Source: Urechidicola croceus (GTDB lineage Bacteria; Bacteroidota; Bacteroidia; Flavobacteriales; Flavobacteriaceae). Taken from it: 64,000 nucleotides of DNA. A program made the position numbers and the translations under genes. Each line of letters begins with the position of its first letter. Positions within the stretch are counted from its first letter, which is position 1. This document shows, in pieces, positions 36,522 through 61,801 of this stretch. Location of the stretch: positions 440,001 through 504,000 of the forward strand of contig NZ_CP017478.1 of assembly GCF_001761325.1 (NCBI RefSeq). Reading direction: 5' to 3'. The notes under the pieces were generated by a model that worked only from the letters and a program-made list of their open reading frames with translations, did no database searches and was not told the origin of the DNA.

Positions 36522-36522
36522 T

Positions 36523-38086: not shown

Positions 38087-38094
38087 CAAATATA
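38087..38094 (-). promoter_or_regulatory. Minus-7 box of the fic-hsdR unit (TATATTTG)
   Basis: Exact TAnnTTTG on the minus strand, 25 bases before the fic ATG and two bases from the first 15-bp repeat. It gives fic-hsdR a promoter separate from hsdM-hsdS. Confidence 0.65.
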
Positions 38095-38096
38095 AT

Positions 38097-38233: not shown

Positions 38234-38239
38234 ATTATC

Positions 38240-38368: not shown

Positions 38369-38369
38369 G

Positions 38370-38648: not shown

Positions 38649-38659
38649 CGTTTTTATCT

Positions 38660-38799
38660 GTCATTGCGAACGCTATACTACCGTCATTGCGAACGTAGTG
38701 AAGCAATCTCTATATTACACGTTCTCACTCTTTCATGGGATTGCCGCGCTTCACTGCGTTACACTCGCAATGACAGGAACGTTCCTCACTCGCAATGAC
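38660..38799. repeat. Palindromic mobile repeat, copy B (140 bp)
   Basis: Begins GTCATTGCGAACG and ends CTCGCAATGAC. It shares an identical 68-base core with copy A. It starts 11 bases upstream of the GIY-YIG ATG and ends two bases before the hsdS stop codon. Its right end contains two CTCGCAATGAC motifs, suggesting nested insertion. Confidence 0.85.
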
Positions 38800-38801
38800 G
38801 G

Positions 38802-43060: not shown

Positions 43061-44207
43061 TTTTTTGTTTCTGTTGATTTTTAAAAAACAACTGTGATAT
43101 TGGAATGAGCATCAATCCTGCAATCAAAAAGGTGTAAAACGCATTTTGCAATCCAATAGCATGTGCAAGATAACCAATAAATGGTGGACCTAACAAAAAG
43201 CCTAATGTTCCGTAGGTTGTAATAATAGAAACTGCTATTCCTGGCGAATATTTCTTGGACGTTCCTGCAAGTGCAAATGTCATTGGAAAAACTGCTGCAG
43301 TTCCAATACCAATCAAGCAAAAACCTAATAGTGCAGGCCAAAAAGTAGGGAATTGGATGGCTGTAAAAATACCAAGTGCCACTAATAGAGCACTGTAGAT
43401 ATACATTCTTGGCATTCCGATACTATCAATAATTTTATCAGAAAAAAAGCGAGATAATGCCATGAACCCCATAAAAGTAAAATATCCGTAGGTAAATACT
43501 TTTTCACCAACAACTTCTTTAAAATAAACACCGCTCCAATCAAACATTCCACCTTCGCAAATGGCAGCAAAAAACACTAAAAGTCCGAGCAATACAATGA
43601 ATGGATCTGGTTTTCCTAAGATGATTTTATTTCCAGTCGTAGATTTATCTTTTTTTAGTGTATAACGATATGCAATAATAGCAGTGATTAATGTAAATGC
43701 AGCAACAATCATTAAGTGAATTTTCATTGATACATTCATGTATACCATCAATGTTGAAAATCCAACTCCTGTAACTCCACCAATACTCCATAGACCGTGT
43801 AAAGAGCCTATAATTCGTTTTTCAAAACGTTGTTGGAGTGTAATGGATTGTGTATTTCCTGATACATTTAAGATACGCATAAAAAATGCAAACAGTGAAA
43901 GGGCTATGACGAGTTGTGTTGTGTTAGACACAAATCCTATAAAGAAAAGAATAATTGCAAATGCTATAAAACCAACGATTAAGGGTTGCCGACTATCATA
44001 TTTTGCCACCAACCATCCCGAAATAGGGATTCCGATTAATGAACATATGGGCATTGTTAGTAGAATTGTACCGAGTTGTGCTTCATTTAAATTGAACATA
44101 TCCTTAATTGTTGGGATACGTGACGCCCAAGAAGCAAATGCGAGTCCAGAAAGAAAAAAATACGCACTAAGCGCAATACGTTGTTGGTTGTTGGTAATAT
44201 TACTCAT
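43053..44207 (-). CDS. MFS transporter (MosC-like), first of a tandem pair
   Basis: 384 residues, about 12 transmembrane helices. It starts with FFLSGLAFASWASRIPTIK and has GWLVAKYDSRQP after helix 2. It is very similar in length and order to the downstream paralogue, indicating a tandem duplication kept in an overlapping arrangement. The start overlaps the stop of a small basic ORF by 8 bases (ATGAGTAA). Substrate unknown. An operator-like palindrome lies upstream at 44419-44433. Confidence 0.88.
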   Translation of the reverse strand: MSNITNNQQRIALSAYFFLSGLAFASWASRIPTIKDMFNLNEAQLGTILLTMPICSLIGIPISGWLVAKYDSRQPLIVGFIAFAIILFFIGFVSNTTQLVIALSLFAFFMRILNVSGNTQSITLQQRFEKRIIGSLHGLWSIGGVTGVGFSTLMVYMNVSMKIHLMIVAAFTLITAIIAYRYTLKKDKSTTGNKIILGKPDPFIVLLGLLVFFAAICEGGMFDWSGVYFKEVVGEKVFTYGYFTFMGFMALSRFFSDKIIDSIGMPRMYIYSALLVALGIFTAIQFPTFWPALLGFCLIGIGTAAVFPMTFALAGTSKKYSPGIAVSIITTYGTLGFLLGPPFIGYLAHAIGLQNAFYTFLIAGLMLIPISQLFFKNQQKQKNE

Positions 44208-44880: not shown

Positions 44881-45276
<396 letters not shown>

Positions 45277-45361: not shown

Positions 45362-45853
45362 CTAAAAAATATCTGTTGTCAAATATAAACCTTTTTTCTT
45401 TCTCTTAGCCTTTAGATTTAATTTTTGATACAATGATAGTTCATCACAATAAACCTTGTTGTATGGCTTTGCATAGCCTTTTTGGATTAGTATTTTGTTA
45501 AGTGTTTTACCGTTAGGTAAAATAATATATGCTAATGTCCTACCAAATCTGTCTTGTTGGTTTTTGACTTCTTGAATTATTGTAATATTCGTTTTTGGTT
45601 TTGCTTTCTTTTTTAAAAAATTAAATGATCTATATCCTAATTCAATTAAAAATTCACTTGGTAGATGTAATTCTCTTTCATCATTTTTGAGTTTTTTACA
45701 AATCTTTAGTTCTGGAGCATCAATTCCTAAAAGCCTTATTTCTTCCTCTTTATTTGTGAAAATATTTTTTACAATTAAGCCGTCTCCATCTACAACTTTT
45801 ACTATTTCGTAATGTGGTCTAACTAAGATTTGTTTATTAGCCTTTGTTTGCAT
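45362..45853 (-). CDS. Thermonuclease family protein (SNase-like)
   Basis: 163 residues, one staphylococcal-nuclease domain. Signature VVDGDGLIV and IRLLGIDAPELK carry the calcium ligand and first catalytic arginine, and DRFGRTLAYI the second arginine, followed by LIQKGYAKPY. There is no signal peptide, so it probably acts in the cytoplasm or is released otherwise. It sits at the left end of the island, next to the att site. It may be defence cargo or serve element biology. Confidence 0.9.
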   Translation of the reverse strand: MQTKANKQILVRPHYEIVKVVDGDGLIVKNIFTNKEEEIRLLGIDAPELKICKKLKNDERELHLPSEFLIELGYRSFNFLKKKAKPKTNITIIQEVKNQQDRFGRTLAYIILPNGKTLNKILIQKGYAKPYNKVYCDELSLYQKLNLKAKRKKKGLYLTTDIF

Positions 45854-46898: not shown

Positions 46899-47330
46899 TT
46901 ACTTTCTTCTTCTCGAAATATATCGGTAAAAAATAGCCCTTTTTGCATCTTGTATTAATTGGATATTTTGATGATACTGTTTTTCTTTATCTTCTAAAAG
47001 TTGAAGCACTTTTACTGATTTTTGAAAAACAGGCTTGTTTTCTTCTGCTATTTCATAACCGCCTGCAATTGCTTTTCGCATATCGTTTATTGTGATAAAT
47101 GGAATTACTGAACCTTTGAGGTAATAATGAAAAGATTTTGCCTTCCATAATCCAAAACATAACCAATATAAACTCTGTAATTCTTCTTCTGTATTTGCTG
47201 TAAGTACAAAGCAATTCGGACAAGGCTCTTTTAATGGCTTTCCGCTATTCATCCCTTTATTTAGAATGTAGAAGTGTGGTTTTTTTGTTTCGGCTGTTTT
47301 GCTGTTTGTTTTCAGATAGAATTTTGTCAT
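46899..47330 (-). CDS. DUF6943-like protein of Bacteroidota integrative elements
   Basis: 143 residues. The central block HFYILNKGMNSGKPLKEPCP then NCFVLTAN, LYWLCFGLW and GSVIPFITINDM is a pattern recalled from small proteins encoded on Bacteroidota conjugative and mobilisable elements (probably DUF6943). The C-terminus is a basic helix ending RYISRRRK. The function is unknown. It lies downstream of a structured non-coding element on the same strand. Confidence 0.55.
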   Translation of the reverse strand: MTKFYLKTNSKTAETKKPHFYILNKGMNSGKPLKEPCPNCFVLTANTEEELQSLYWLCFGLWKAKSFHYYLKGSVIPFITINDMRKAIAGGYEIAEENKPVFQKSVKVLQLLEDKEKQYHQNIQLIQDAKRAIFYRYISRRRK

Positions 47331-48415
47331 TTTAAACGGATTTTAGTTGTATTCCGAAATCCCCTTCACAAAATTTTTTGACAAAGAAAAAAACGAAAAA
47401 AAAAGAAAGCCGTTTAACAAGTGGTAAGGGTTGGACTGACAAGGTTTTTGAGGAAAATACTACCCTTTCGGGTGGAGATTTTTTTCAAAACCCGTAGGGC
47501 TTGACCTTTTCAGACCAAACCGTCCGCTTACTCTTGCATTCTTTTTTATTCTTTTGTTATAATATTATCTCCCTCTATGTTTCTTGATAACTACTTAATG
47601 TTCTTCAATTCCTTTGGGGAAATATGACCAGAAAAAAAATAAACTATACCTATTCTAAAAGCGTGGGCTGATGGTGGCAAGTGTGACGATTGAACGAAAT
47701 GGAACTATTGGGTGGGATGGAATGAAGTAAACTGAATATTTTGCAGGGTTGCAGAGTTTGCAAACTTTACAATTTACTGTAAACTCTTTTTGGGTGGATA
47801 AAATATTCGGTTTGCGTAATGGAATTGTGCGTTGGCATAGTGTAATGTAGAGAATGAGTTACTCTTGCGTGGCTGTTGTAGGCGTTAGTGGTTGATTGTA
47901 ATGAGTGAATGTAGGCACGAAATGAACGAGTGTAATGAAACCTCTAAAAGCCGTAATTATGAATAGTTTATTTTTTTTCTGACCGCTGAAAAGGGTGGTG
48001 GGGAATTGTGGTCTTTCGGTTGGTGAAGTAGGTTTTATGCGTTGGATTTTGCGGTTATTTAACATAATGTTATTATAGGACATAGGCGAAGCCCGAAATG
48101 CAATGTAGCCCTTTTGGGTATGTACTATAATGCCACATTATGTTACTTAACTTTGGGTTGTTTTTTTTGGCACAAGTTTGTTCATTGCGGGCATTGGCGA
48201 ACAATACGTCTTGTTGCTTTTTCTGCAAGAAGTGTGACAAAAAAAACAACTATGCGGTGGGAAAGCGGAAGGGTATAAAAAGACAGAAAAGTTATGAGGC
48301 ACGAATAACGTTGGATTTTTATAGCCTGTGGGAAAACCTACGGAACCAACCGTTATTAAAGTCGTGCGTAGCACACCTATTAAATACTATGTTTGTTGTT
48401 TAGATAAATGCTTGT
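47331..48415. other. 1.1-kb non-coding region of the island
   Basis: No convincing gene on either strand, and base composition is more G+C-rich than the flanks. It contains the three-way-junction structure at 47429-47521, a perfect palindrome AGTTTGCAAACT at 47755-47766, and small hairpins such as CCCTTTTGGG near 48109-48118. It may hold a transfer origin, replication origin or non-coding RNA. Confidence 0.6.
47429..47521 (-). ncRNA. Candidate structured RNA (three-way junction with a GAAA-capped hairpin)
   Basis: The closing stem pairs GGTTGGACTGACAAGG (47429-47444) with CCTTTTCAGACCAAACC (47505-47521), nearly complete. Inside are one arm with TTTTGA / TCAAAA and AAAAT / ATTTT, capped by ACCC-TTTC-GGGT (47462-47473), and a small hairpin CCC-GTA-GGG (47491-47499). 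On the minus strand the cap reads CCCGAAAGGG, a GNRA tetraloop, so the minus strand is the likely RNA. It ends about 100 bases before the DUF6943-like start. It could be a leader, a small RNA, or a DNA structure such as oriT. Confidence 0.55.
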
Positions 48416-50479
48416 TTATAAAAACCATAGGTTCTTTTGACCGAAAGGTGGCAAACTATCATTTTTAAAGAAAGGATAAATTTCTGCAACCATTTCTGGG
48501 TATTTGATTGTAACAGGTAAATTTTGTTGCCTTACCGATTTCCAATACATTCTACTAAATTGATACACCTGATCTATTAAATCCTTTATCATTAATTTAT
48601 CGCCTAATAATGCTTCCTCTGATGATGAAAATGTAAGTTTAATTGGAAAAGGATTGTCTGTTACTGTTTCTCTTGTATTGTACCGTGTATTATTAAACAA
48701 TAGATATTGTTCTTTACCAATTGGAACAATAGAACCACTTAAAGGCATTAGGTTTGGACTATCTAAATCAAACGCTACATAGTCATTAGAAAGTGTTTTG
48801 TTGATTGTAATAATGATTACAGGTATATTCCAATTAAACTTATGTAAGATGTCGTAAATAGGCTCTAAATCCTTTTTACTAATCTTTTTGTAGAAATGTA
48901 TTACTAATCTTTTGGCTTGTTTATGATTATCTACTACATATTTCATTATTGCTTTGCTTATTTCTCCACCTAACTTTTCGGTTTCATTAGAATTAAAGCA
49001 ATTAAAATCTTGAAATGTACCATCATTATTAAAACAAAATGTACTACCAATGTATTTGGTTTTTTGAGTTACCGAATAAAAAGCACCTACACCTACAACT
49101 AAATCATCTTTTGTATCTGTATCTAATCGCCAAGGAATACCATTTATTTTTGCCAATAAAGCGACAGCAATATTGGGTAAATACCATTTAAAATTAGCAT
49201 TGAATAAACTCTCTTTATAAATTACTTGTGATGTTATACCTTGATTTAGAAATAACTCTTTCATTTTGTAATACAACATTAATCTTTGATTGTCTTTTTC
49301 ATCCTTACTAACAGGACTAATATAAAAAGCAACATATAATGTATTATCTACTTTTTCAAAAGTAGATAGTTGTTGTGTTATTTCTTGTAAGGCAGTATCG
49401 ACACTTGTAAATTCAAAACCTTTACTTTCTACCATATAAAAGTTCTGTGCAATTGCTTCTTGCATTGGTGGAAAATTTACATACTCTCCATTCTTTAAAC
49501 CATCACGAAGTATTGAGAATAATTTTGTAACATATTTTTTTCTATCGTCTTTATGATAAATAAAAACAAAACGAACATTTGATTCATCAGAAGGCTTGTA
49601 AGGCTTTAGCCTTAAAAAGTCTTTTTTTGGCTCTTTTCCTTTACCTTTTCCAAAAGACAGTTCACTTGAACTGTTTTTAGTTTTTAAAATTTGTAAATTA
49701 TTTGGGTCGTCATTATTAATAGAAATATAACCAGCACCAACTAATGGGATTATACTTTTAAATACTTCAGTATTTAAATAAGTATCGTAAAAGAAATTTA
49801 TTTCTTTGAGATATGGTTTGTATTTATTTGGCTCACGCTTAAAAGGTCTATCAATAGTTAGTTCATCTAATAAGGTTTTACTAAGAATTGGATATACTTT
49901 ATCGAGATTAAGTTTTAATTCTTGACTTTGCCATTGATAACTATATATTTCATTTTTAAATAGAACTTTATTTATTAACTCTGGACGTAAATTATCGAAC
50001 TCTGCAATGCTTTTTTTATGTACTAAAGAAGCACCATCAAAAGTAATAACTAACTCCATACCCTTTGAAACATTAGCATATTGAACCCTTAATGAATATT
50101 TTTTATAGGTTGTATAATTATTGTTTTTTACTGTACTATCTTTTAACCATACTTCTACGTCATTTACAAAACCAAAATTTACTGCATCAGCATTTCGAAG
50201 AAAAAAATCATAAATTGATTTGGTGTAATAATGATTAGCAAAAGCCCAACTTGTATTAAAATCTACTTCTGCAATAAAATCACAATCTGCTGTATCTTTA
50301 AAATTAGAATATAATCTTTTGCAATCCTGTAACTCTTCTTCATATTTAGCCCATAAAGATTTAGGATATTCAAACTTTTTTAAAGGATAATAGCCGTCTT
50401 TTTTCTCTTTATAAAAACCAAACTCTACTTTAGTAGAGGGATGGTTGAATGGGATGATATTTAGTGTGAGTTTTTGCAA
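48416..50479 (-). CDS. MID-PIWI Argonaute-like protein, predicted catalytically inactive
   Basis: 687 residues. MID region about 300-450: Y404-K405 in LYYKMKELF, Q418 in ITSQVIY and K444 in LLAKINGIPW match the YK...Q...K pocket for a guide 5' phosphate. PIWI region about 450-687, ending QQNLPVTIKYPEMVAEIYPF. Catalytic DEDX positions appear changed: VVGVGAF has G465 where the first D is expected, and VIHFYKK has Y530 where VIHRDG is usual. So it probably binds guide and target but does not cut. It is the last gene of an XRE-Mod-nuclease-Res operon, 3 bases after Res, which suggests it guides or modulates the type III system. Confidence 0.82.
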   Translation of the reverse strand: MQKLTLNIIPFNHPSTKVEFGFYKEKKDGYYPLKKFEYPKSLWAKYEEELQDCKRLYSNFKDTADCDFIAEVDFNTSWAFANHYYTKSIYDFFLRNADAVNFGFVNDVEVWLKDSTVKNNNYTTYKKYSLRVQYANVSKGMELVITFDGASLVHKKSIAEFDNLRPELINKVLFKNEIYSYQWQSQELKLNLDKVYPILSKTLLDELTIDRPFKREPNKYKPYLKEINFFYDTYLNTEVFKSIIPLVGAGYISINNDDPNNLQILKTKNSSSELSFGKGKGKEPKKDFLRLKPYKPSDESNVRFVFIYHKDDRKKYVTKLFSILRDGLKNGEYVNFPPMQEAIAQNFYMVESKGFEFTSVDTALQEITQQLSTFEKVDNTLYVAFYISPVSKDEKDNQRLMLYYKMKELFLNQGITSQVIYKESLFNANFKWYLPNIAVALLAKINGIPWRLDTDTKDDLVVGVGAFYSVTQKTKYIGSTFCFNNDGTFQDFNCFNSNETEKLGGEISKAIMKYVVDNHKQAKRLVIHFYKKISKKDLEPIYDILHKFNWNIPVIIITINKTLSNDYVAFDLDSPNLMPLSGSIVPIGKEQYLLFNNTRYNTRETVTDNPFPIKLTFSSSEEALLGDKLMIKDLIDQVYQFSRMYWKSVRQQNLPVTIKYPEMVAEIYPFFKNDSLPPFGQKNLWFL

Positions 50480-50482
50480 ATT

Positions 50483-53098
50483 TTAAATATTTAGAGTTGC
50501 TTTAAATTTATTATCAAATTCTGTTTTCTTTTGTGCTTCATTGTATAAAGGCATACCAACTAACTTATAATCTCTATTTTCATAAACTACTTGTAGTTTA
50601 TAGTCTTTTTCTAATTGCAATAAAAATCTTTCTTTGATTTGACTATCTTCATTTGTAAGTCTATCTCCACCTTTTGGCTCTATAAACATTTGATGAATAA
50701 TAGATTTTGAATTGTCTTTTTTCTTTAGAATTAATACAAAGTCTGGCTCTAATGCTTGACCTTCATCAAAGGTGTATAACTTAAAGTGTTTTTCATTTCT
50801 GATTAAGTATATTTCATCATACTTTTTAGATAGAGAAATATATGCTTGTTTGATATATTTAACTAAATACTTTTCTTCTGATGTACCATAATTATCATTA
50901 AAAACATACCAATCTTCTGTTGATAAATCAATAAACAAATCTTGATTTGTGGTTTCTGTTTGACCTAATCCATATTCTTGGTCTCCATCTTCATTTACAG
51001 ATATGTTTAATACTTTTTCTTTTTCAAATGTATATTTTATACCCTGTGGTTCAAACTCTTTTGTACCTTTAAAAGAAACAGAACCTTGTGGAATTGCTTT
51101 AGCAATTTCATCAAAGACTTTTACTAAAGTCTCTAATATCATTTCATTTGAAGGGTTTTGAACTTGTTCAATAGTTCCTTCTAATTCAACCTTAATATTC
51201 AAAGCATATTTATCTGAAGTTAGAAACTCTGATACAGATTTTAAATGTGGGAAATACTTTTGAAGATTGTTAAATCTGTAAAAAGGTAATTTATTTAATG
51301 CTTTTCTTTTTATGTGAATAGGAAATGAAGCAATTGGATGGATTTTAGTTTCTTTAGAAATATTCACTTGTACAGTTTGAGAAGATGCTAAACTAACATT
51401 TGAGATACCAGTAAGAAACTTTTTCTTATAAGGATATTCTATTATTTTTTTATCTAATTCGAGAATATCTAAGCGGTCATAAACTGTTCTTTTATTTAAG
51501 TATAAAACACCACTTTTAAACATATCGGTATCTTTAAAACTATCCTTTACATACAGTCTTTTTTGAACTGTTTTGATAGATTTCATACCTATTTGCTCTA
51601 ATGCCTTATTAAGTTCTGATATGTACTTTGGATTGTGTGCTGAATGATAATATAGTTCTTCACAAATACGCAATTCATTTTCTATATCATCATCATATTT
51701 TCTTTGAAATAGCGACTGAGTATCATTTAATTTAAAAGGACAATATCTTGCACCTCTACCAATTAATTGTGCTTCTGACATAGTTGTTTTACCAACCTTA
51801 CCACTTTTATGGTCTGCATCTCTTGTATTGTATAATCTAACTATATCGAATAGATTTAAAACGTCCCAACCTTCATTTAATTTATCTACTGCAAATATTG
51901 CTCGATATTCATTATCTATATCTTCTAAACTATTGACAATTAGTTGTTTTTCTACACTATCATCTTTACTGTTTACTGATATACATTTATCTTCTGAAAA
52001 ATCTCCTTTTAACTCTAAAATTAAATTTGAAATAGTAATATTTTGAGCATCAAAATAATTAAATATTCTTTCTATTATTGGGTTTGTAGAATTGTTTCTT
52101 ATTTTGTTAAGTGTTGCAGGTGTTAAGTTATTTATGCCATCAATAAACTCTGTAAAGAATGATTTACTTTCTCCAATAGTTTTAGATTTTAACAACATTA
52201 CCGGCTTAATATTTATTTTGTTTTTCTCGAATACTTTTCTACGATATTGATTTAAAATAACTGCTTGTAATGCTCTTTCAAATTGATTTAATTCTGCTTG
52301 AAGTACTTGTACTTCTTTAGAATATTTATCTTTTCGAAATTGCTTTAGTGGATAATCAAATAACAGTTTATCGTTGTACTTTTTTTCAACTTCTGGATGC
52401 TGTAAATCTGCTGTTGCCGTAAACTCTAATAAAAGATTATCAGGATTAGAATTGAATATTTTATTGACAGTACCTTCCCAACTTAAAATACTTTCTACTT
52501 CATCTTTTGTTTTTTTACCTTTCTTAGTTTCTGCATTAATATGGTGTGCTTCATCAGATAATAATACTATCTTTTTATCTTCAAAATCTTCATAAGTTAA
52601 TGCGTTTTCTTTAGGTGTATTTAAGCGAGAGTGTAAACCTTGAATAGTTGTAAAAACTATATTAATATCTTCTTGGTTTGCTGTTTCAAAATTATCTACT
52701 TCTTTAATTGTTATTTGCTTATCTGCAATGGATAAGGTTTCATTAAAAAGGTATTTAGAAGAAAGTGAGTTTAAGAAATTGTCTTTTGTTTTCTCAATAA
52801 TATTAGAACTATTAACAAAGAATATAAAATTGCGATACCCTTGTTCATACAAATCTAAAATAACACCTGCCATTACTAAAGTTTTACCACTACCTGTTGC
52901 CATATGAAATAACAACTGTGTTGGTTTTTTTCTTTGGTTATCTTGATTTAATGCAAAATTGAACCTTGAAAAGGCTTCATTTTGATATGGCCTTAAAGCA
53001 AATTTAGGATTTAGGTTATTAATAATATGCGGTTTTACCTCAATAGGAATAAAGCCCATTGAAATACCTGCTGATATTTTTTGTTCTAATGTTTGCAT
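50483..53098 (-). CDS. Type III restriction endonuclease subunit Res (helicase-nuclease)
   Basis: 871 residues from the ATG at 53098, one base after the preceding stop; a start at 53131 would overlap that gene. Superfamily 2 motifs: LRPYQNEAF (Q motif), MATGSGKT (Walker A), LLSDEAHH (DEAH), LLEFTATA (motif III), DKLNEGWDV and QLIGRGARY (motifs V-VI). The C-terminal nuclease shows EPDFVLIL and FIEPKGGD, the D...ExK of a PD-(D/E)XK fold. With Mod it should cleave DNA with unmodified sites after translocation. The usual partner gene order mod-res is kept, with a small nuclease gene between. Confidence 0.93.
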   Translation of the reverse strand: MQTLEQKISAGISMGFIPIEVKPHIINNLNPKFALRPYQNEAFSRFNFALNQDNQRKKPTQLLFHMATGSGKTLVMAGVILDLYEQGYRNFIFFVNSSNIIEKTKDNFLNSLSSKYLFNETLSIADKQITIKEVDNFETANQEDINIVFTTIQGLHSRLNTPKENALTYEDFEDKKIVLLSDEAHHINAETKKGKKTKDEVESILSWEGTVNKIFNSNPDNLLLEFTATADLQHPEVEKKYNDKLLFDYPLKQFRKDKYSKEVQVLQAELNQFERALQAVILNQYRRKVFEKNKINIKPVMLLKSKTIGESKSFFTEFIDGINNLTPATLNKIRNNSTNPIIERIFNYFDAQNITISNLILELKGDFSEDKCISVNSKDDSVEKQLIVNSLEDIDNEYRAIFAVDKLNEGWDVLNLFDIVRLYNTRDADHKSGKVGKTTMSEAQLIGRGARYCPFKLNDTQSLFQRKYDDDIENELRICEELYYHSAHNPKYISELNKALEQIGMKSIKTVQKRLYVKDSFKDTDMFKSGVLYLNKRTVYDRLDILELDKKIIEYPYKKKFLTGISNVSLASSQTVQVNISKETKIHPIASFPIHIKRKALNKLPFYRFNNLQKYFPHLKSVSEFLTSDKYALNIKVELEGTIEQVQNPSNEMILETLVKVFDEIAKAIPQGSVSFKGTKEFEPQGIKYTFEKEKVLNISVNEDGDQEYGLGQTETTNQDLFIDLSTEDWYVFNDNYGTSEEKYLVKYIKQAYISLSKKYDEIYLIRNEKHFKLYTFDEGQALEPDFVLILKKKDNSKSIIHQMFIEPKGGDRLTNEDSQIKERFLLQLEKDYKLQVVYENRDYKLVGMPLYNEAQKKTEFDNKFKATLNI

Positions 53099-53099
53099 A

Positions 53100-53654
53100 T
53101 TATCCCTTAATAAGTGTAAATAGGTTTTCAAAATCTTTATTCATAGCACCCCATCTAAATTCGTGATTTGGTGTTAGATATTTGTACCCTGCAAATGTGT
53201 TATGTGTAACAACAGCATATTTACTAACCTCTACACCTTTTATCCAACCATAAAAACCGATTTCTTTTCTATTGAAATCTATCCAGCCAACTATCACAAA
53301 GTCTTTTGTAGATGGGTTTTGTTCTTGAGGATAACCATAAGTCCAACCATCAGTAGGAGGTCTTGATGTTGATTTTTTAGCAACCTTTATGTCTATTTTT
53401 TTATTATTAATCAAGAAGTCATATTGATCTGAATTAACAATAGTAAAATCTGTTTCATCTAATTTGTAATCAATATTTTTGGATTTTAAATAATGTTCAA
53501 ATGCTATTTCTCCTAAACAACCAAGTAATGCCTTGTCTATTCTTTGAGCATTACTAAGATGAAACCGAGAATATAAACCATTTTCAATCATAGTTGTAGC
53601 ACGTTTTCTTGCTTCATTTAATGCTATGTCAAAATCTATATCTATTATTATCAT
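53100..53654 (-). CDS. Predicted PD-(D/E)XK nuclease-like protein between mod and res
   Basis: 184 residues. GCLGEIAFEHYLKSKNID gives the helix glutamate, and DQYDFLINNKKIDIKVAKK has the core pattern D...D-I-K of the PD-(D/E)XK superfamily, where the ExK position is DIK. The second half has WTYGYPQEQNPSTKDFVIVG and is beta-rich. There is no signal peptide. It is embedded in the operon, with 7 bases to Mod and 1 base to Res, so it probably works with the complex, as an extra nuclease or guide-processing enzyme. A degenerate non-catalytic version is also possible. Confidence 0.7.
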   Translation of the reverse strand: MIIIDIDFDIALNEARKRATTMIENGLYSRFHLSNAQRIDKALLGCLGEIAFEHYLKSKNIDYKLDETDFTIVNSDQYDFLINNKKIDIKVAKKSTSRPPTDGWTYGYPQEQNPSTKDFVIVGWIDFNRKEIGFYGWIKGVEVSKYAVVTHNTFAGYKYLTPNHEFRWGAMNKDFENLFTLIKG

Positions 53655-53661
53655 ATTATGC

Positions 53662-55578
53662 TTATTTTAAATTGTAAAAAAGATTAGTAATATTTTTATC
53701 ATTATCAGATACCATAGTTGAAAAAGATTTATCATTGACGTCACAAGCGTTAATGTAAAGTTCGTTTTTGTCTAATAGTGATATTAAAAATTGTTTTTGA
53801 TTTTCAATACTTAAATCATTAAATTCATTTTGAGAATTATCAATGGATGATGGAGTTATTTTAAATAAAATAAAACTTTCCTCTTTTAATTTATCCCAAA
53901 TTTTTACTAAGGCTTCACTTGTAGAAGCACTTTCTATTTTTTCTACATATGATGCGTTGTTTTGTGCCAATTCAAAATAAACAAAACTACCACCACCTTT
54001 CCATTTTACTGTGTTTGAAATGCCTGTATTCTCTCCAGAGATTACTTTGTTTAATCTTTCTACAGTCACATCTTCTATATAATCCATTTGCTCAATACCA
54101 ATATATTTATATCCGAGTTTATGGGCAACAGCACAAGTAGTACCACTACCTAAATGAAAATCTAAAATTATATCATTCTTTGAAAGTTTATTACTTACCA
54201 TATTAATTAAATACATAATTAAACTCTCTGATTTAGGATAAGAAAAAACTTCTTTACCAAACAATTTAGTTAAATCTTTCCCTGCATTTTCTGTAGTTTG
54301 AACACCCATAGAACTATCAATATAATTTATTGGTGATTCTATATCATATTCTAATTTTTCATAGGCTGGAGAAAAAGAAGATGTGCGTATTGAAATAATA
54401 GTTCCTCTTTCTATTTCGTTCGTCAATTTATTTTGACCCCATTTAAATTTCCCTTGTAGTTTTACTTCTTCAGTAAACAGACCATTTTTAACAGTTGTGT
54501 CATCTAATAATTCAATAACATATTTATCTGTTCCATATTTCCCCTTTTTATAAGAACCATCTTTTAAACCTGTTTCGACAATGTTTTTTGGAAATGTTAA
54601 AACTCCTGTTGAATTGGTCTTATTCATTAAACCATTACTACTTGACGATTGTTTTTCTACACCTTTATATTTTACACTGTCTTTGTTTTTTTCGTAGCAT
54701 AGTATATATTCTAAAACCTTTTTGCTCTTTTTCGGTAAATTTGAAGGAGTATCAGTTTTTTTCCAAGAAAATATATCTATAAAATTATCAGTTTTAAATA
54801 TCTCATCCATTAATATTTTTAGATAAGCAACTTCATTATCATCACAACTAACAAATATTACACCATCACTTGTGAGCAAATCTCTTGCTACTTCTAAACG
54901 GTTTTTCATAAATGTCAACCAAGATGAATGATTAAAACTATCATTATAATTAAAACTATCATTACCTGTGTTGTAAGGTGGGTCAATGTATATAAACTTA
55001 ATTTTACCTTTATAAACCTTTTTTAAAGAATGTAATGCTAAAAGATTATTCCCTTTTATTATTAGATTATCATCTAAAGAAATATTCTTAACGGGATTTT
55101 CTCCTTTTTCATTATATCGTTTAATATTTGTCAATGCTTTAGGCTCAAAGAGTCTGTCTATTTCATCAGGAGCAAGTGTTTCATTCCAAAATATTTCTTT
55201 ACGTTTCTGCTCATCTCTTGTTTGACCACCCTCTAAAACGCAATCTTTATAAGCCCAAGATAAAACTACCTCTTTTGCTTCTGTTAAATACTCTCCATTT
55301 GCCGTTAAGCCTATCTTGTTTTTATAGGCTGTATAACTATCTGGAAGAAACTGTTTGTTAGAAACAAATTTTTGAAACTTCACTTTATCAAAGACTAATA
55401 CTTTACCTACTTCTGTAAAAAAATGGTGTATTGCTTTTTCATCAGTTAATAATAATGAAAGTAAATCTGGCTCAACTTTTAAAGCATCTTCAACAATTAC
55501 GTTTTTAAATAACTTACCATCTTTACAATACTTTTCGTTTTGTGCAAGTACTGATTTTATATGTTCAAATAGATTCAT
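53662..55578 (-). CDS. Type III DNA methyltransferase subunit Mod
   Basis: 638 residues. The beta-class order is seen: catalytic DPPYNTG in FIYIDPPYNTGNDSFNY near 200, then the SAM-binding DFHLGSGTTCAVAHKLGY near 475 with IGIEQ. The long middle part is the target recognition domain. Mod methylates one strand of the site and supplies specificity to Res. N6-adenine is the usual target for this DPPY type. It follows the XRE regulator by 2 bases. Length is typical for type III Mod. Confidence 0.93.
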   Translation of the reverse strand: MNLFEHIKSVLAQNEKYCKDGKLFKNVIVEDALKVEPDLLSLLLTDEKAIHHFFTEVGKVLVFDKVKFQKFVSNKQFLPDSYTAYKNKIGLTANGEYLTEAKEVVLSWAYKDCVLEGGQTRDEQKRKEIFWNETLAPDEIDRLFEPKALTNIKRYNEKGENPVKNISLDDNLIIKGNNLLALHSLKKVYKGKIKFIYIDPPYNTGNDSFNYNDSFNHSSWLTFMKNRLEVARDLLTSDGVIFVSCDDNEVAYLKILMDEIFKTDNFIDIFSWKKTDTPSNLPKKSKKVLEYILCYEKNKDSVKYKGVEKQSSSSNGLMNKTNSTGVLTFPKNIVETGLKDGSYKKGKYGTDKYVIELLDDTTVKNGLFTEEVKLQGKFKWGQNKLTNEIERGTIISIRTSSFSPAYEKLEYDIESPINYIDSSMGVQTTENAGKDLTKLFGKEVFSYPKSESLIMYLINMVSNKLSKNDIILDFHLGSGTTCAVAHKLGYKYIGIEQMDYIEDVTVERLNKVISGENTGISNTVKWKGGGSFVYFELAQNNASYVEKIESASTSEALVKIWDKLKEESFILFKITPSSIDNSQNEFNDLSIENQKQFLISLLDKNELYINACDVNDKSFSTMVSDNDKNITNLFYNLK

Positions 55579-55580
55579 AC

Positions 55581-55877
55581 TTATTTTTTGGATATGTTTT
55601 TATATTCTTTTTCTACAATTTCTAATGCTTGTAACCCATTCTTTTCATCTTTAATAATTAGATGTATTTTATCTGCTAACCATAAAGAAATAAGTTCGTT
55701 GTAATCTAAATTGAATATTTTAGAAAGTTGCTTGATGTGTTCTTTTCGTGCTGTTTTTTCTCCTCTTTCAATCTTACTTAACATTGCTGTGTCCATATCT
55801 AATTGGGCAGATAAATGCCTGAGCAACATTTCTTGTTCTTCTCTTTTTGTACGAATTAAGTCTCCGAATTTATTCAT
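55581..55877 (-). CDS. XRE-type HTH regulator (C-protein-like) leading the type III RM operon
   Basis: 98 residues from the second ATG (55877); the ATG one codon upstream is also possible. The HTH_3 domain shows FGDLIRTKREEQEMLLRHLS, MDTAMLSKIERGEKTA and KQLSKIFNLDYNEL. The C-terminus is a helical extension ending EKEYKNISKK. As first gene of the operon it probably controls its own promoter through the inverted repeat at 55887-55922, as C proteins do in other RM systems, to delay restriction after entry into a new host. Confidence 0.88.
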   Translation of the reverse strand: MNKFGDLIRTKREEQEMLLRHLSAQLDMDTAMLSKIERGEKTARKEHIKQLSKIFNLDYNELISLWLADKIHLIIKDEKNGLQALEIVEKEYKNISKK

Positions 55878-55985: not shown

Positions 55986-58280
55986 TTAAACACTTACTTT
56001 TTGGTAATGCCCAAAACTTGGTTGTGTAAGTAGTGTATTCAGTAGGCTTTTAAGTAATTCATCTACAGAACGAGATTTTAATTTGTATTGTATGCCTAAT
56101 TTTATGGCTTCTTCTCGTTTGAAATTTTTAGGCAAAGCCTCAAAAAACTTTTTCTTATTACTTTTCCCTTTAAAAACACCTGTTTCTTCTTTCTTAGGTA
56201 AGTTATGGTACATTAGCAAACTGTGTTGTAGATATACGCTTGCAATATGTAAAGCCATTTCAAAATCTTCATCAGTACAAAATACTTCTTCTGACATATC
56301 TCCGTTTTCAAACTTACGAAGTGCTGTAAAAATCATAGTAAAACGATATAATATTAAACCTAATCTTTTAACTACACTACTTGCTTCTTCACTTGTGAAG
56401 ATGGTTACTTCTCTTAACCATTGGTCGCCTGTTATGTTGACTGTTTCCCATTGCTCTTGGCTCAGATTAATAACTGTTTTTTGAGATTGTAGAAAATCTA
56501 TTAATTGTAATACAATATTAGACAATGCCTTGAAATGGTCGTTTAAATTGATAGTATTGCCGTAAGGCGATACGTCTCTCCATTTTTGCTCTACCTTAAA
56601 AGTATAGAATAAAAACCTACTAAATAAACCATCTTCTGCTGATGAAATAATATTGGCAACTTGTCCTGGTGTTCCTGAAAGTGCTACTGATAATTTTGGG
56701 TCTTTGATTATTATATATTCGTTATCGGTTTTTCTTGAAACAGATATTGTTTCTCCGTGAAATGATTTGCGAAGCATATCAGAATAACCACCCCAATCTT
56801 GTTTAAATACTGCACCCATACTGTCCGCTTCTGTTTCGCAAATAATCCCTTTAGCATCATTTTGTTGAATGTGTTTTAAGATTGCTGCATACGAAGTATT
56901 TGCAGGAATAAAAACAACTTTAAAAGGTGGTTTTATTGGTTCTTCTGCAACTGTTTCATCATTCTTTTTTCTGTTTCTTTGTGCTGTTTTGTATTCGGCT
57001 AATTCTGCATCATAGATTTGTTTTTCCTTATTGCTTTCTTCTAAAACTCTTTCTTGATAAGGGTCTGCCAATACTTTAGCAAATTTTAAAGCACCTTTAC
57101 CACTTGCTGCAGGTGCTATGATAAATGAAAATAAATTAGGGTAAACAGTTTCTTGTGCATAAACACCTTCTACATTAGGTAAACAACCACTTAAAATAGT
57201 TAATGCACCTGTGAAAAAAACGTCTCTTTCTCTTACGTCTGAAAATGCTCTTGTACCTTCTTTTAAAATATCTGGTAGATTTTCAAATATATCTTTATCA
57301 AAGGTTGGTGTGTTTTTTAGATAATCTTCTGTTGGTTCTTGTGCTGGTTGCTGTTGCAAAACATTGCTACTTGTTGCAATGGTATTGCTTTGATTGTAAT
57401 TTTGATACTCTGCAAATTGATTACTATTATTGGTATAGGCACTTTTTACAGATGCTTTTAACTCACTATTTTTTAGGTCGTATGTATTTGATATGAGATG
57501 CAAAGCATCATCAAATACAATACCTCTCCTGTTGCAGTTACAAGCCAATTGATAAATATAATTGTTTCGGTTGCCCTCAATATAAGTTGCTTTATTTTCG
57601 GTGAATTGGATACATTGTTGAAATATATCTGAAGTTGTAGAAGTATCATTTTGAATTGATTTAGTTGGTGTTGATTTTGGTTTGATTTCTTGTTGTTCTA
57701 TTTGTTCAATATCTACTATGAATTTTTGATTGTTGATGTTTCTGTATCCGTTAGGATCATTAGAAACAAAACACAAACGAGTAATGTCTTTACATTTTGG
57801 GTCTGCTTCAATACCTATTGCTTTTTCATAGTAATCTTGAACTTGTTGGTATGCCGTTTTGTGGTGTTCTATGCCTGTATTTATTTCAATAAATACTTTT
57901 AGGCCATTACCACTTGGGCTTGTGAAACAAGCAAAAGTGAAAGGAATATTATTTATAATTTCCGTTGCTTTTTCTAATTCGTCTGGATAGAGTTTATCAA
58001 AGTCAAGATGTACAAAACCGCTGTACATTTTTAAGTATTCCATTTTTCTACCACCTTCAAAAATGCCTGATGGTGTAAATGCAGGAAGTGACTTTTTTAA
58101 ATTATCTACTCTGCCGTCTTTTCCCATACCTATTGCCATACGAATAGGAGAGATTAAGTCTTTATATTTTCCCTCTACTATATCTTTTGTTATGAGTAAC
58201 AAAGATTTAGTTTCAATGGGTTGGTTAAAGTTTTTGAATATTGTTGATGATGCCATAATTTCTGTTGATTTATTTCCCAT
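55986..58280 (-). CDS. VirE-N / DUF3987 domain primase-helicase-like protein
   Basis: 764 residues. The N-terminal BT4734-like VirE-N domain has SGFVHLDFDKL and FTSPSGNGLKVFIEI, the acidic and glycine motifs of an archaeo-eukaryotic primase-like fold. A PriCT-like linker follows (NRNNYIYQLACNCNRRGI). The C-terminal DUF3987 domain has the P-loop FIIAPAASGKGALKFAKVL and LSGTPGQV. Such proteins are hallmarks of Bacteroidota integrative elements and probably prime or unwind element DNA. The start at 58280 overlaps the upstream HTH gene by 11 bases; MASSTIF at 58256 is the alternative. Confidence 0.85.
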   Translation of the reverse strand: MGNKSTEIMASSTIFKNFNQPIETKSLLLITKDIVEGKYKDLISPIRMAIGMGKDGRVDNLKKSLPAFTPSGIFEGGRKMEYLKMYSGFVHLDFDKLYPDELEKATEIINNIPFTFACFTSPSGNGLKVFIEINTGIEHHKTAYQQVQDYYEKAIGIEADPKCKDITRLCFVSNDPNGYRNINNQKFIVDIEQIEQQEIKPKSTPTKSIQNDTSTTSDIFQQCIQFTENKATYIEGNRNNYIYQLACNCNRRGIVFDDALHLISNTYDLKNSELKASVKSAYTNNSNQFAEYQNYNQSNTIATSSNVLQQQPAQEPTEDYLKNTPTFDKDIFENLPDILKEGTRAFSDVRERDVFFTGALTILSGCLPNVEGVYAQETVYPNLFSFIIAPAASGKGALKFAKVLADPYQERVLEESNKEKQIYDAELAEYKTAQRNRKKNDETVAEEPIKPPFKVVFIPANTSYAAILKHIQQNDAKGIICETEADSMGAVFKQDWGGYSDMLRKSFHGETISVSRKTDNEYIIIKDPKLSVALSGTPGQVANIISSAEDGLFSRFLFYTFKVEQKWRDVSPYGNTINLNDHFKALSNIVLQLIDFLQSQKTVINLSQEQWETVNITGDQWLREVTIFTSEEASSVVKRLGLILYRFTMIFTALRKFENGDMSEEVFCTDEDFEMALHIASVYLQHSLLMYHNLPKKEETGVFKGKSNKKKFFEALPKNFKREEAIKLGIQYKLKSRSVDELLKSLLNTLLTQPSFGHYQKVSV

Positions 58281-58554
58281 TGATAGGAGATTTAAAATTC
58301 TTGTTCAATAGTTCGAGAATATCTGAAAGACGATAGTAAATTTTATAGCCTATCTGACAATAGCCAATTAATCCGCTATCTCGCCAATGTTGGGCGGTAC
58401 GTTTACTGATATTCATAATTTGTAGGAACTCCTGTGTATCGAAAAATACTTGGTCAGGATTTGTTCTTTGCTTGTCTTTGAGCATTAGAAGTAAATCGTC
58501 TAAACGTTCTTCTATTTGCTCTAACTTTTCGTGTGAAGGATGATAGTAGCCCAT
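58270..58554 (-). CDS. Excisionase-type helix-turn-helix protein
   Basis: 94 residues. An N-terminal coiled helix (KLEQIEERLDDLLLMLKDK) precedes a MerR-like HTH_17 domain with FLQIMNISKRTAQHWRDSGL and YKIYYRLSDILELL. Such pairs of small HTH proteins precede the VirE-N/DUF3987 gene in many Bacteroidota elements, acting in excision or transcription control. It is 2 bases downstream of the second HTH gene. Confidence 0.85.
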   Translation of the reverse strand: MGYYHPSHEKLEQIEERLDDLLLMLKDKQRTNPDQVFFDTQEFLQIMNISKRTAQHWRDSGLIGYCQIGYKIYYRLSDILELLNKNFKSPINGK

Positions 58555-58556
58555 AG

Positions 58557-58859
58557 TTATCTTCTTTTATTTTGGATAACATAATTGGCTGCTGCCATTT
58601 CGATTTCAGCATCAGTAGATTGTCGGTTACGTTGTAACCAAATATCTAATTCCTGTCTATTGAAGTAGAGTTTTTTGCCCTGTGGGCAGAAATGTGGGAT
58701 TTTCTTCTGACTTGTTAGTTTATATAGGTGCGAAGCACTTATATCTAAATAACTACAAGCATCATTGAAGTTAAGGACTTCTTTTTTTAAGAGGTTTTGT
58801 TCCTCTAACTTTCTATCTAATTGAGAAAGTTTTTCTAAGATTAAATTTTCATTGTTCAT
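58557..58859 (-). CDS. Excisionase-type helix-turn-helix protein
   Basis: 100 residues. The N-terminal helix (LILEKLSQLDRKLEEQNLLK) is followed by HTH_17 with FNDACSYLDISASHLYKLTS and KKLYFNRQELDIWLQRNR. It leads the HTH-HTH-primase unit. Upstream lies a minus-7 box at 58898-58905 and a cluster of CATTGAGAT repeats that may be its binding site. Confidence 0.87.
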   Translation of the reverse strand: MNNENLILEKLSQLDRKLEEQNLLKKEVLNFNDACSYLDISASHLYKLTSQKKIPHFCPQGKKLYFNRQELDIWLQRNRQSTDAEIEMAAANYVIQNKRR

Positions 58860-58975: not shown

Positions 58976-60073
58976 TTATTTCAGATGATTAATGTAATTG
59001 CTTATTTCTTCTTTTTTTTCATCATAATCATTAGAAACACTTGAATAAATCGTTTGTGCTTTTAGTGGTTTTTCGGGATTATCCTTACTGTAAAACAATT
59101 TACTTTTTTCCATTTGTGTAGGATTGAAATTATTAAAATATACTTTAATAGATTCTATAAAATATTTGAAAACTACTGTCTGACAATTAAGGTAAATATT
59201 AGGGCTGTTTTCTGTTAGATTTTTAGATGTAAATACTTCAAGTAAATGTTTTTCTGTTGTTGGTGCTTTTATGAAATCACACTTTATGACTAATTGACTT
59301 ATAACAGTTTTAAGTTTTTCTGTATCTCCTTTAAATTTGAATGAAAAAGCATCTGGAATATCTAAATTCTGTGTGATGATTTTTTTTGATACTTGTGTAG
59401 ATAGATTACTAATTTCTTTTAGTAATGGTTTTTCTATGTAATATTCTTCTTCTGTAGGTACTTCTGTTTTAAGAAATTCGCTAAATATTTGATATTTATC
59501 AGATTGTATACTACTTAAATAATGCGGATATAGTAATTCTATTTCGAGCAATAAACGGACTGTATTGCTTTGCAATACGTCCATAATATTCTGTGAAGAT
59601 TGGTCTTGTGTTTTGATAACGCTTTGGTTATCTCCAATGATTGACAAAAAAGAAACTATGTTTGATTTTATAGAGTTGACTATATATTTTCTGTCTATAT
59701 CTTTAATATCTCTAATTATTGCCTGTAAGATATTGTTTGATACACGAGTTACTTCATTAATTATTAAAGCATAGTAAAAACGTTCTATTGGATTGGTTGC
59801 AGTAGGTTGTTTCAATACAATTAATGGCTCACTAATTTGCTGTTTTATTTTTAGTGTTGGTTGCTTTAAATAGATCGTTAAACTATCATCTTGAAATAAT
59901 TCTTTATTACTTTTATAAATACCTTTGAGCAAATTGTAATATTCATCAATCCCATTTATGGGATTAAGAAATTGAGGTGTTAAGTTGGTTGAAAAGAATT
60001 TATTATTTTGATTACGAGATAGCCAAGGTCTTAATTGACCTAATAGTATGCTTCTTAATATTGTTAGTTCCAT
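58976..60073 (-). CDS. Conserved protein of Bacteroidota integrative elements (possibly DUF6617)
   Basis: 365 residues without a recognised catalytic motif. The sequence is helical and rich in isoleucine, asparagine and lysine. The C-terminal part (SFKFKGDTEKLKTVISQLVI, FIKAPTTEKHLLEVFTSKNL, IYLNCQTVVFKYFIESIKVY) resembles a domain seen beside integrases in Bacteroidota mobile elements, with some likeness to RteC-type proteins. It starts 2 bases after the integrase stop, so it is probably cotranscribed with it. Confidence 0.6.
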   Translation of the reverse strand: MELTILRSILLGQLRPWLSRNQNNKFFSTNLTPQFLNPINGIDEYYNLLKGIYKSNKELFQDDSLTIYLKQPTLKIKQQISEPLIVLKQPTATNPIERFYYALIINEVTRVSNNILQAIIRDIKDIDRKYIVNSIKSNIVSFLSIIGDNQSVIKTQDQSSQNIMDVLQSNTVRLLLEIELLYPHYLSSIQSDKYQIFSEFLKTEVPTEEEYYIEKPLLKEISNLSTQVSKKIITQNLDIPDAFSFKFKGDTEKLKTVISQLVIKCDFIKAPTTEKHLLEVFTSKNLTENSPNIYLNCQTVVFKYFIESIKVYFNNFNPTQMEKSKLFYSKDNPEKPLKAQTIYSSVSNDYDEKKEEISNYINHLK

Positions 60074-60075: not shown

Positions 60076-61182
60076 TTAAAAGTCTAATTTTATTTTATCT
60101 GCTGCTTCAATCTTTTTATCATCTATTACTTTGGCATAAATTTGAGTTGTTTTTAATTCTCTATGACCTAATAATTTTGATACTGTATAAATGTCTGTAC
60201 CTAAAGACAACTGAAGCGTAGCGTAAGTATGTCTTGCACAATGGAACGTTATGTTTTTTGTTATACCTGCTCTCATCATCCATTGCAACAATTTTACATT
60301 ATACCAGGCACTATATCTTAAACCAACAAAAACCCTTTCATCTGATGCTTTTTCTTCTCCAAGCATATCTCTTGCTTGTTGAGAAATAGGCAAGGTTTCT
60401 GCTCCTTTGGTTTTCTTTTGTCTAAAACGAATATGGTTTCCCATATGTTCTGAATGCTGAACCTCTGACCAAACTAATTTATTTATATCTGACCACCTTA
60501 AACCTGTAAGGCAAGAAAATAAAAACGCAGTTTTTAGTGGCTTGATTTCACATTCTGTTTTGGTTATTGCTTGTAATTCTTCTAATGTTAGGTATTCTCG
60601 TTGTACTTCTCCTTGTTTAAATGCTTTTACTTGTTCTGATGGGTTGTATTTCATTATACCATCTCTAACTGCTTGTTTTAATGCTGCTCTTAATTTATTG
60701 AAATAAGAATATTTTGAATTTTGAGAAAGTGGCTTGCCACCTTTTGAGGTTGCTTCTTCATCAAGATAATCTCTAAAACCTTGAACCCATTCTCTATTAA
60801 CTCTGCTGAAAGTAATATCATTAGGACAATATTTTTTAAGGTGTTTTCCAACACTATCCCAATTTCCATAATTGCCGGTACTTTCTTTTCTCTTTTCTGT
60901 GAGTGTATCAAAGTACATTAAAAAATTACCTTTTAGTTTTTCGCTATCTTGAAAATCATAAATACTATTGTGAATTTCTAAATGTCTTTTTGCTTTTATG
61001 CTTTCGGCTAATTGAAGTATCTTTTTATTTTCATCTTTTTGCTGTTTTGTAAGACTTCCATTCTCTGGTTCAGGCATTAGATAAAGTTGCAAATATTCGT
61101 ATTGCCTTTTTCCTTTACTATAATAGTCGAGGTATAAACTTATCTTATTTCCCTTTTTTCTTTTTCTTAATGTAACTTTCAT
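60076..61182 (-). CDS. Tyrosine-type site-specific integrase
   Basis: 368 residues. It has an N-terminal arm-binding domain (VTLRKRKKGNKISLYLDYYS) and a SAM-like core-binding domain. The catalytic domain has arginine in SCLTGLRWSDI, HCARHTYATLQLSLGTDI with the H-x-x-R box, LLGHRELKTTQIY with the second histidine, and the tyrosine nucleophile. It integrates and, with the excisionase-like proteins, excises the island at the mnmE end. It lies about 600 bases from the right att site, as usual for such islands. Confidence 0.95.
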   Translation of the reverse strand: MKVTLRKRKKGNKISLYLDYYSKGKRQYEYLQLYLMPEPENGSLTKQQKDENKKILQLAESIKAKRHLEIHNSIYDFQDSEKLKGNFLMYFDTLTEKRKESTGNYGNWDSVGKHLKKYCPNDITFSRVNREWVQGFRDYLDEEATSKGGKPLSQNSKYSYFNKLRAALKQAVRDGIMKYNPSEQVKAFKQGEVQREYLTLEELQAITKTECEIKPLKTAFLFSCLTGLRWSDINKLVWSEVQHSEHMGNHIRFRQKKTKGAETLPISQQARDMLGEEKASDERVFVGLRYSAWYNVKLLQWMMRAGITKNITFHCARHTYATLQLSLGTDIYTVSKLLGHRELKTTQIYAKVIDDKKIEAADKIKLDF

Positions 61183-61783: not shown

Positions 61784-61801
61784 TTACTTTCCGATACAGA
61801 A
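61784..61801. other. Right attachment site in the mnmE 3' end (18 bp)
   Basis: TTACTTTCCGATACAGAA encodes the C-terminal FCIGK and stop of mnmE on the minus strand. It is the right-hand partner of the repeat at 45240-45257. Confidence 0.7.

Follow-up and report, generated by a model that had tools for sequence, protein, structure and literature searches.

A prokaryotic Argonaute gene behind exchangeable restriction-modification cassettes in an integrative element of Urechidicola croceus

Introduction

Why does a gene for a prokaryotic Argonaute (pAgo) lie directly behind a complete type III restriction-modification (RM) system? The question is raised by a stretch of 64,000 nucleotides (nt) from Urechidicola croceus (NZ_CP017478.1, positions 440,001 to 504,000), here called the window, in which one minus-strand operon holds both. 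A sequence-only reading of the window had suggested a composite machine, in which a guide-loaded pAgo recruits or licenses the restriction subunit Res or senses invading DNA that escaped the methyltransferase Mod. Comparison with related loci shows instead that RM and pAgo are both cargo of one mobile element, in which the pAgo, often accompanied by an XRE-family regulator, is the fixed part and the RM genes are exchanged.

A statistical link of pAgos with defence genes, RM included, was described in 2009 (Makarova, 2009; PMC2743648). Methyltransferase orthogroup og_13 and type III restriction orthogroups og_21 and og_34 were later found among pAgo neighbours, and the same study states that specific pAgo groups showed no defined operon composition, a CRISPR-linked one excepted (Ryazansky et al., 2018; PMC6299218). 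A subclade of long-B pAgos was subsequently delimited by the protein og_54 (VirE-N), encoded 2-8 genes upstream, its function and mechanism being left to future work (Song et al., 2023; PMC10620215). Long-B pAgos with downstream effectors are also described in the AfAgo study (PMC10954474), and the main text of a preprint on DISARM- and Druantia-related helicases contains no mention of Argonaute (PMC12458937). Among the matches listed, titles and abstract openings of the open-licence literature contain no description of the pAgo-RM cassette arrangement.

Results

The type III operon ends in a pAgo gene

The genes concerned are, in the order of transcription:

55581..55877, minus strand: XRE-family regulator, 98 residues, at the head of the operon (HTH_3, 3e-07)
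53662..55578, minus strand: Mod, type III adenine methyltransferase, 638 residues, DPPY motif (PF01555, 3.4e-43; PF12564, 2.4e-22)
53100..53654, minus strand: orphan of 184 residues, possible PD-(D/E)XK nuclease (motif by eye only)
50483..53098, minus strand: Res, type III restriction subunit, 871 residues, ATG start (PF04851, 1.4e-32; PADLOC REase_III, 9.6e-127)
48416..50479, minus strand: pAgo, probably of long-B type, 687 residues, TTG start (PF02171, Pfam Piwi, 1.3e-11; PADLOC pAgo PDLC02385, 1e-264)

All five frames are open and adjacent, with intergenic gaps from XRE to pAgo of 2, 7, 1 and 3 nt, and the tight operon described in the sequence-only reading is borne out. An alternative TTG start of Res at 53131 would create an overlap with the 184-residue gene. 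The claim of a complete type III system is likewise supported: Mod and Res both have the defining Pfam and PADLOC domains. Mod combines the N6/N4 methylase domain and DPPY motif with the type III Mod domain PF12564, matches PADLOC MTase_III (4.9e-179), and in the Protein Data Bank (PDB) finds the Mod subunits 6k0w (2.8e-39), to which its IDPPYNTGND motif aligns, and EcoP15I Mod (6.5e-29). Res has SF2 helicase motifs and a C-terminal nuclease motif, and its REase_III match spans residues 23-874. The motifs GSGKT, DEAH and C-terminal PD...EPK were identified by eye, and the PDB search gave no match at E 0.001.

RM type is random with respect to the pAgo tree

Members of the PADLOC pAgo family were found in 34 of 395 sampled Bacteroidota genomes, in nine of them (the window's genome included) at E < 1e-190. 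From a scan of a genome collection the best 80 of 363 relatives were kept (L053-L132), a best-scoring and not a random sample, which together with one viral contig, the window, L034, L036, L038 and L039 gave 86 pAgo loci. The phage collection gave no match to the pAgo, and plasmids gave six distant ones, none with 80% query coverage. RM labels were assigned by score cut-offs, with hand labels for six loci. Two of the 86 rows were dropped for short pAgo frames (L093, L118), and 12 of the remaining 84 lacked enough context, leaving 72 evaluable loci. Alternative starts or broken genes account for part of the short pAgo frames and of the large gaps, and the near-copies L086/L114 and L094/L095 (identical pAgo) were kept.

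Type I systems were assigned to 28 of these loci and type III to 16, with 5 more partial; the others were IIG (2), type ISP (1), methylase only (1), AAA_5 (McrB-like by eye) with a methyltransferase (2), Druantia-like (2), Gabija (1), other (9) and nothing (5). Among the nine are L086/L114, which have AbiF (by eye), and L073, where Eco57I-type methylases are present. In grouped form, six loci have other RM and 12 other or unknown genes, RM genes being retained in 55 of the 72. Four of the five loci labelled 'nothing' have the XRE gene immediately before pAgo, and L110 has neither XRE nor RM. The XRE family is present in 26 of the 43 pAgo loci with a DUF3987 gene of the host element (see below) in view.

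Mapped onto the pAgo tree, the RM label changes 35 times, compared with a mean of 35.9 for shuffled labels (80 of 200 shuffles as low); looser first labels gave 33 changes against 35.2 (35 of 200 as low). The type III label alone needs 19 changes against 21.0 (96 of 500 as low) and is not significantly clustered. RM type is thus random with respect to the pAgo tree, and the type III pairing is not the conserved trait. The neighbourhood had been expected to be conserved in related genomes: a pAgo behind RM genes is indeed recurrent and fixed in orientation among the 86 loci, and the part that did not hold is the type III pairing, seen in 21 of 72.

Cassettes are exchanged at the pAgo start

Ten pairs of loci with close pAgos (pAgo DNA identity about 80-97%) were compared around the pAgo start. 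In six of them (window/L053, L101/L102, L130/L132, L078/L083, L085/L117 and L057/L056) ungapped identity over the 60 nt upstream of the start is 20-55% and rises to 75-100% over the 50 nt that follow it, the exception upstream being the last 10 nt of L057/L056 (70%); with gaps, the same pairs show 38-63% in the 120 nt before and 88-96% in the 120 nt after. In register and with gaps, L078/L074 has 52% before versus 93% after the start, and L070/L072 28% versus 87%. For these eight pairs together identity is 28-63% before and 87-96% after, the background for random pairs of upstream stretches being 47% (standard deviation 13; gapped, 120 nt). In L122/L123 and L086/L087 the rise in identity comes about 30 nt upstream of that point. 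Three control pairs whose members have the same last gene in front of pAgo (L080/L083, L078/L079 and L124/L126) are 94-98% alike upstream. The pair L060/L062 was dropped as a candidate swap, because the hsdM genes upstream are related and the difference is confined to their spacing from pAgo.

An empty and a filled site are seen in L101, where XRE and pAgo are 1 nt apart, and L102, where a type I system of about 7.2 kb separates them. The left cassette border falls in the last XRE codons in both XRE pairs examined (L101/L102 and window/L053). L053, from Tenacibaculum haliotis, is the closest relative among the matches listed, with a pAgo 96% identical, Mod at 61% distance, Res at 34% identity and no 184-residue gene. 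The nonsynonymous and synonymous divergences of this pAgo pair (dN 0.021, dS 0.350) indicate purifying selection across the RM swap.

Nothing points to borders set by a specific site or by repeats: the longest word shared by XRE end and pAgo start averages 6.4 nt versus 6.2 nt after shuffling (77 of 500 as high, n=25). Nor was a common operator seen by eye upstream of XRE, with palindromes listed for 13 of 23 loci; likenesses among them are limited to near-copies (window/L053, L086/L114) and to ATTTGAC-type arms in L072 and L124. In Mantel comparisons, pAgo distances follow those of the element genes DUF6617 (r 0.84, n 20) and DUF3987 (0.59) and of XRE (0.47), and more weakly those of the RM genes HsdR (0.28), HsdM (0.16), HsdS (0.13) and Mod (0.31).

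The orientation of RM genes is fixed where pAgo is present

Within 8 kb of pAgo in the 86 loci, 100 RM core genes lie upstream on the same strand, none upstream on the opposite strand and five downstream. The gap between pAgo and the gene upstream of it has a median of 18 nt (82 loci). For comparison with elements that have no pAgo, a search was anchored on the DUF3987 protein, which matched in 64 of 395 phylum genomes (E 0.001) and 33 of 395 class genomes (E 1e-50). Thirty-four stretches were taken among the stronger DUF3987 matches, weaker matches and the stronger G371 being left out, and 26 of the 34 reach at least 10 kb past DUF3987. Same-strand RM is present in all six of these with pAgo and in six of the 20 without (Fisher p 0.004), or in nine of 20 if three motif-only candidate loci are added (p 0.024); in five of the 20 RM lies on the opposite strand. 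Adding the six earlier loci that the element search also matched, two of which (L034, L036) carry an RM call made by hand, gives 12 of 12 versus 6 (9) of 20 (p 0.0001 (0.0016)). XRE follows the same pattern, with five of six versus one of 20 (p 0.0005), the sole XRE locus without pAgo (L153) ending 11.5 kb on. Because the loci are related, these p-values are indicative.

The pAgo is probably of long-B type and has a conserved guide pocket

An AlphaFold2 model built with 64 sequences (pLDDT 87.9, pTM 0.86) shows a full-length Argonaute. The Argonaute fold expected from the earlier description of a 687-residue 'MID-PIWI' protein is thus present in the prediction; what has to be amended is the domain content, which is not MID-PIWI alone. 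Foldseek ranks eukaryotic PIWI proteins and Rhodobacter sphaeroides Ago (RsAgo) highest, with TM-scores of 0.67-0.71 (normalised by query length, first eight rows; about 0.7 to RsAgo), and by sequence the nearest solved proteins are AfAgo, EcAgo and RsAgo. The MID region starts about 60 residues earlier than in RsAgo, the N-lobe being shorter than that of RsAgo. A short pAgo of the SPARTA-like kind (MID-PIWI only, with an APAZ partner) does not fit, as the chain has 687 residues and an N-terminal lobe precedes MID.

The first two catalytic aspartates of the DEDX tetrad are replaced by G465 and K531 (positions by eye), each invariant in 64 of 64 sequences. The residues Y403, K407, Q418 and K444, also invariant in 64 of 64, align with RsAgo and form the MID pocket for the guide 5'-phosphate. 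In the lack of the DEDX tetrad in PIWI and in the MID motif YK..Q..K the protein agrees with long-B pAgos, and it should bind guides without cutting. That YK..Q..K serves the 5'-phosphate follows Ryazansky et al. (2018; PMC6299218).

The fifth gene upstream of pAgo has a PF08800 domain. PF08800 was formerly called VirE_N, and this BT4734-like_N/DUF3987 gene is probably the 'VirE-N' gene of earlier papers. The subclade to which the pAgo belongs is probably the og_54/VirE-N long-B group.

The 184-residue protein is an orphan

The sequence-only reading had called the protein between Mod and Res a small PD-(D/E)XK-like protein. It has no match in Pfam, PADLOC or NCBIfam and no relative in the plasmid, phage and viral-contig collections or in 394 other sampled Bacteroidota genomes, and its model is of low confidence (pLDDT 47). 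The name was not substantiated: a PD-(D/E)XK nuclease is possible from a motif seen by eye. With no relative in anything searched and a poor model, we do not regard the gene as a conserved component.

The locus is the defence slot of an integrative element

A 16.5-kb integrative element has inserted at the mnmE 3' end, and the operon fills its defence slot, which is bounded by the BT4734-like_N/DUF3987 gene and a DUF6943 gene. The features of the element outside the slot are as follows:

61788..61798, minus strand: left attachment copy, an 11-nt repeat in the mnmE 3' end (mnmE 61784-63196, named by eye)
60076..61182, minus strand: tyrosine recombinase, probable element integrase (by eye from the sequence)
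58976..60073, minus strand: DUF6617 element gene
58270..58859, minus strand: two small HTH_17 element genes
55986..58280, minus strand: BT4734-like_N/DUF3987 element gene (PF08800, 5.5e-33; PF13148, 2.9e-66)
46899..47330, minus strand: DUF6943 gene, opposite flank of the slot (PF22105, 2.5e-53)
45362..45853, minus strand: SNase-like gene near the right end (PF00565, 8e-16)
45244..45254, minus strand: right attachment copy, the 11-nt repeat of the mnmE end

Identity with the T. haliotis element ends at 45241, 3 bases from the right repeat, while the L053 sequence continues. The 11-nt repeat is weak alone, and because it coincides with the end of identity the evidence for the element boundary is strong. 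The mnmE 3' end also lies upstream in five other loci examined (L061, L086, L114, L130 and L132), where the stretches covered contain no second repeat copy of at least 10 nt.

Genes downstream of pAgo and elsewhere in the window

Directly downstream of pAgo no effector of the BPAN, BPAS or BPAM type (nuclease, Sir2 or transmembrane protein) was recognised; the next listed gene is that of DUF6943, 1085 nt away. In loci without RM a gene of 133-138 residues overlaps the pAgo stop. It was considered as an effector and rejected, since by eye its product resembles a Fur-type regulator belonging to the adjacent RND metal pump. Genes for heavy-metal RND efflux (by eye), frequently accompanied by one for a Fur-like regulator, lie downstream of pAgo in L061, L082, L085, L109, L119, L130, L132 and others, and their presence in the same element may explain the association of long-B pAgos with RND genes reported in PMC6299218. 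A GmrSD-type gene (Pfam on L054) lies 7-25 nt downstream of pAgo in L054, L057, L091, L122-L124 and L126, which makes type IV restriction a second recurrent pAgo neighbour (seven loci). In L036 pAgo stands between an AAA_5/methyltransferase operon and the DISARM genes drmA and drmB. L129, a metagenome relative labelled Planctomycetota, has a 398-residue downstream gene that overlaps pAgo by 4 nt, possibly a different partner or a sign of misbinning.

Outside the element, the window contains a type I RM operon without pAgo at 33648-41740 (minus strand; HsdM, HsdS, Fic-like and HsdR by eye; N6_Mtase match), with a 78-nt imperfect repeat inside hsdS, and at 41906-44207 (minus strand) two tandem, paralogue-like MFS-type transporter genes (by eye) that share a 266-nt stretch 72% alike.

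Discussion

We give about an even chance to the reading that the pAgo, often with XRE, is a fixed frame, that the RM system is an exchangeable cassette, and that the pAgo acts as a generic, guide-dependent second layer of defence. The RM cassette, here the type III Mod and Res with the orphan, lies before the pAgo start codon in the same reading direction, and the XRE promoter would drive cassette and pAgo together. Whichever restriction system is present would supply the first cut. The pAgo may bind 5'-phosphorylated guides and would block or mark the invading DNA, with no cutting and no dedicated effector gene. Cooperation with RM would be generic, through shared expression and perhaps through DNA fragments produced by any RM system, and not through docking on one Res. 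In a more specific form, which we hold to be unlikely, the pAgo is a second stage blind to RM type: fragments from RM would load as guides, so that methylated invader copies that escaped RM stay recognised. If true, this would add a short-lived sequence memory to restriction, carried by a mobile element in which the start codon of pAgo is the place where one first-stage enzyme is replaced by another.

Several points weigh against the frame-and-cassette reading. Relatives were chosen by best score (80 of 363) and not at random, and the loci lack phylogenetic independence; the hidden Markov models for RM genes, derived from neighbours on the same strand, may slightly favour that strand. XRE is absent from 17 of the 43 loci with DUF3987 in view, and some cassettes are not RM systems (one Gabija, two Druantia-like helicases, AbiF). 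A weak correlation with the pAgo distances persists for HsdR, HsdM, HsdS and Mod (p 0.001-0.021). The border between the window and T. haliotis is less clean than others. In blastn the last 437 nt of the window's res are joined to the corresponding T. haliotis stretch; the two res tails are related and lie outside the 93% identical block, with ungapped identity of 27-51% (last 300 nt) and gapped identity of 63% (120 nt) and 70% (400 nt, where random pairs give 50, standard deviation 11). Two short minus-strand frames of 75 and 74 residues, which in L053 start 41 nt beyond pAgo and to which frames at 47859-48374 in the window correspond, would be possible pAgo partners if they are genes, of which there is no sign. 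Finally, because RM is common in pAgo-less relatives of the element, which carry it in the same slot, part of the pAgo-RM association is shared cargo.

This last point leads to the view that pAgo and RM are independent defences that share a cargo slot and that their adjacency has no functional meaning, which we consider somewhat improbable. The random distribution of RM types on the pAgo tree, the four loci with XRE and pAgo and no RM, L110 with neither XRE nor RM, and unrelated cargo such as the RND metal pumps on the other side of pAgo all agree with it. Mere hitch-hiking is hard to reconcile, however, with an order and orientation that are fixed with pAgo (100:0 upstream) and mixed without it, with a pAgo that is nearly flush with its cassette (median gap 18 nt), and with the keeping of RM genes in 55 of 72 loci despite 35 label changes on the tree. 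Another possibility, in our judgement quite unlikely, is abortive infection as in BPAN, BPAS and BPAM, the toxic effector being a cassette gene (the 184-residue protein here; YhcG, RhuM, DUF4062-HATPase or OLD elsewhere). Extra nuclease, ATPase or similar genes do often stand one or two places before pAgo, and among the 86 loci YhcG is found in 3, RhuM (by eye) in 7, DUF4062 in 11 and OLD in 5 (Pfam names). The published long-B effectors, in contrast, lie downstream of pAgo and typify whole subclades (PMC10620215). Here no neighbour is constant, the 184-residue gene is an orphan, and such a gene is lacking upstream in the four XRE-pAgo loci.

The machine proposed in the sequence-only reading, with Res recruited or licensed by a guide-loaded pAgo, or with a pAgo that senses DNA escaping Mod, appears very improbable and was rejected as the principal explanation, as RM type is random on the tree and the pAgo start is where one cassette gives way to another. 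The tight operon with both parts complete speaks for such a machine, as does the lack of a recognised dedicated effector gene beside pAgo, for which the Res nuclease could act. Yet pAgos that are 96-99% identical in protein sequence sit behind unrelated RM genes, close pAgos being found behind type I, type III, IIG and other systems and, in four loci, behind XRE with no RM at all; clustering of the type III label is not significant (19 changes versus 21.0), and T. haliotis pairs nearly the same pAgo with another Mod and Res. Docking on Res is specifically disfavoured because the partner changes while the pAgo hardly does.

With the exchangeable-cassette reading in mind, the locus can be set beside known systems. 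Like the og_54 group, it has a pAgo of long-B type with a probable VirE-N gene 2-8 genes upstream (here the fifth), but og_54 is treated there as an associated protein (PMC10620215), whereas here it is a gene of the mobile element and the genes in between are an exchangeable cassette, mostly RM. A catalytically inactive long pAgo is common to this locus and to BPAN, BPAS and BPAM, which have one co-evolving downstream effector gene (PMC10620215), whereas here RM is swapped upstream and no constant effector was recognised. AfAgo, grouped with the split or PAZ-less long-B pAgos, is the PDB protein closest in sequence over the PIWI part and shares the inactive PIWI domain and an N-lobe shorter than that of RsAgo (PMC10954474); unlike its group, the present pAgo is a single chain in an RM operon context and has no recognised downstream effector gene. 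Mod and Res have the defining domains of type III RM of the EcoP15I kind, from which the locus differs in the orphan gene between mod and res, the XRE gene before them and the pAgo after them. In the system of pPIWI-RE, DinG helicase and restriction endonuclease, PIWI, nuclease and helicase genes likewise share one operon, but the PIWI family is different and the operon has three genes and no methyltransferase (PMC3702460).

For the long-B pAgo systems characterised so far, the established or proposed mode of action is activation of a dedicated toxic partner; here no constant partner was found and whole RM systems are exchanged. A concrete identity can be proposed in this way for the og_54 group, so far unexplained, and the loci in which the same pAgo occurs with a different RM system, or with none, form natural matched sets in which to ask whether Argonautes use restriction products. 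If they do, a single mobile module would combine innate immunity, by RM, with immunity based on guides.

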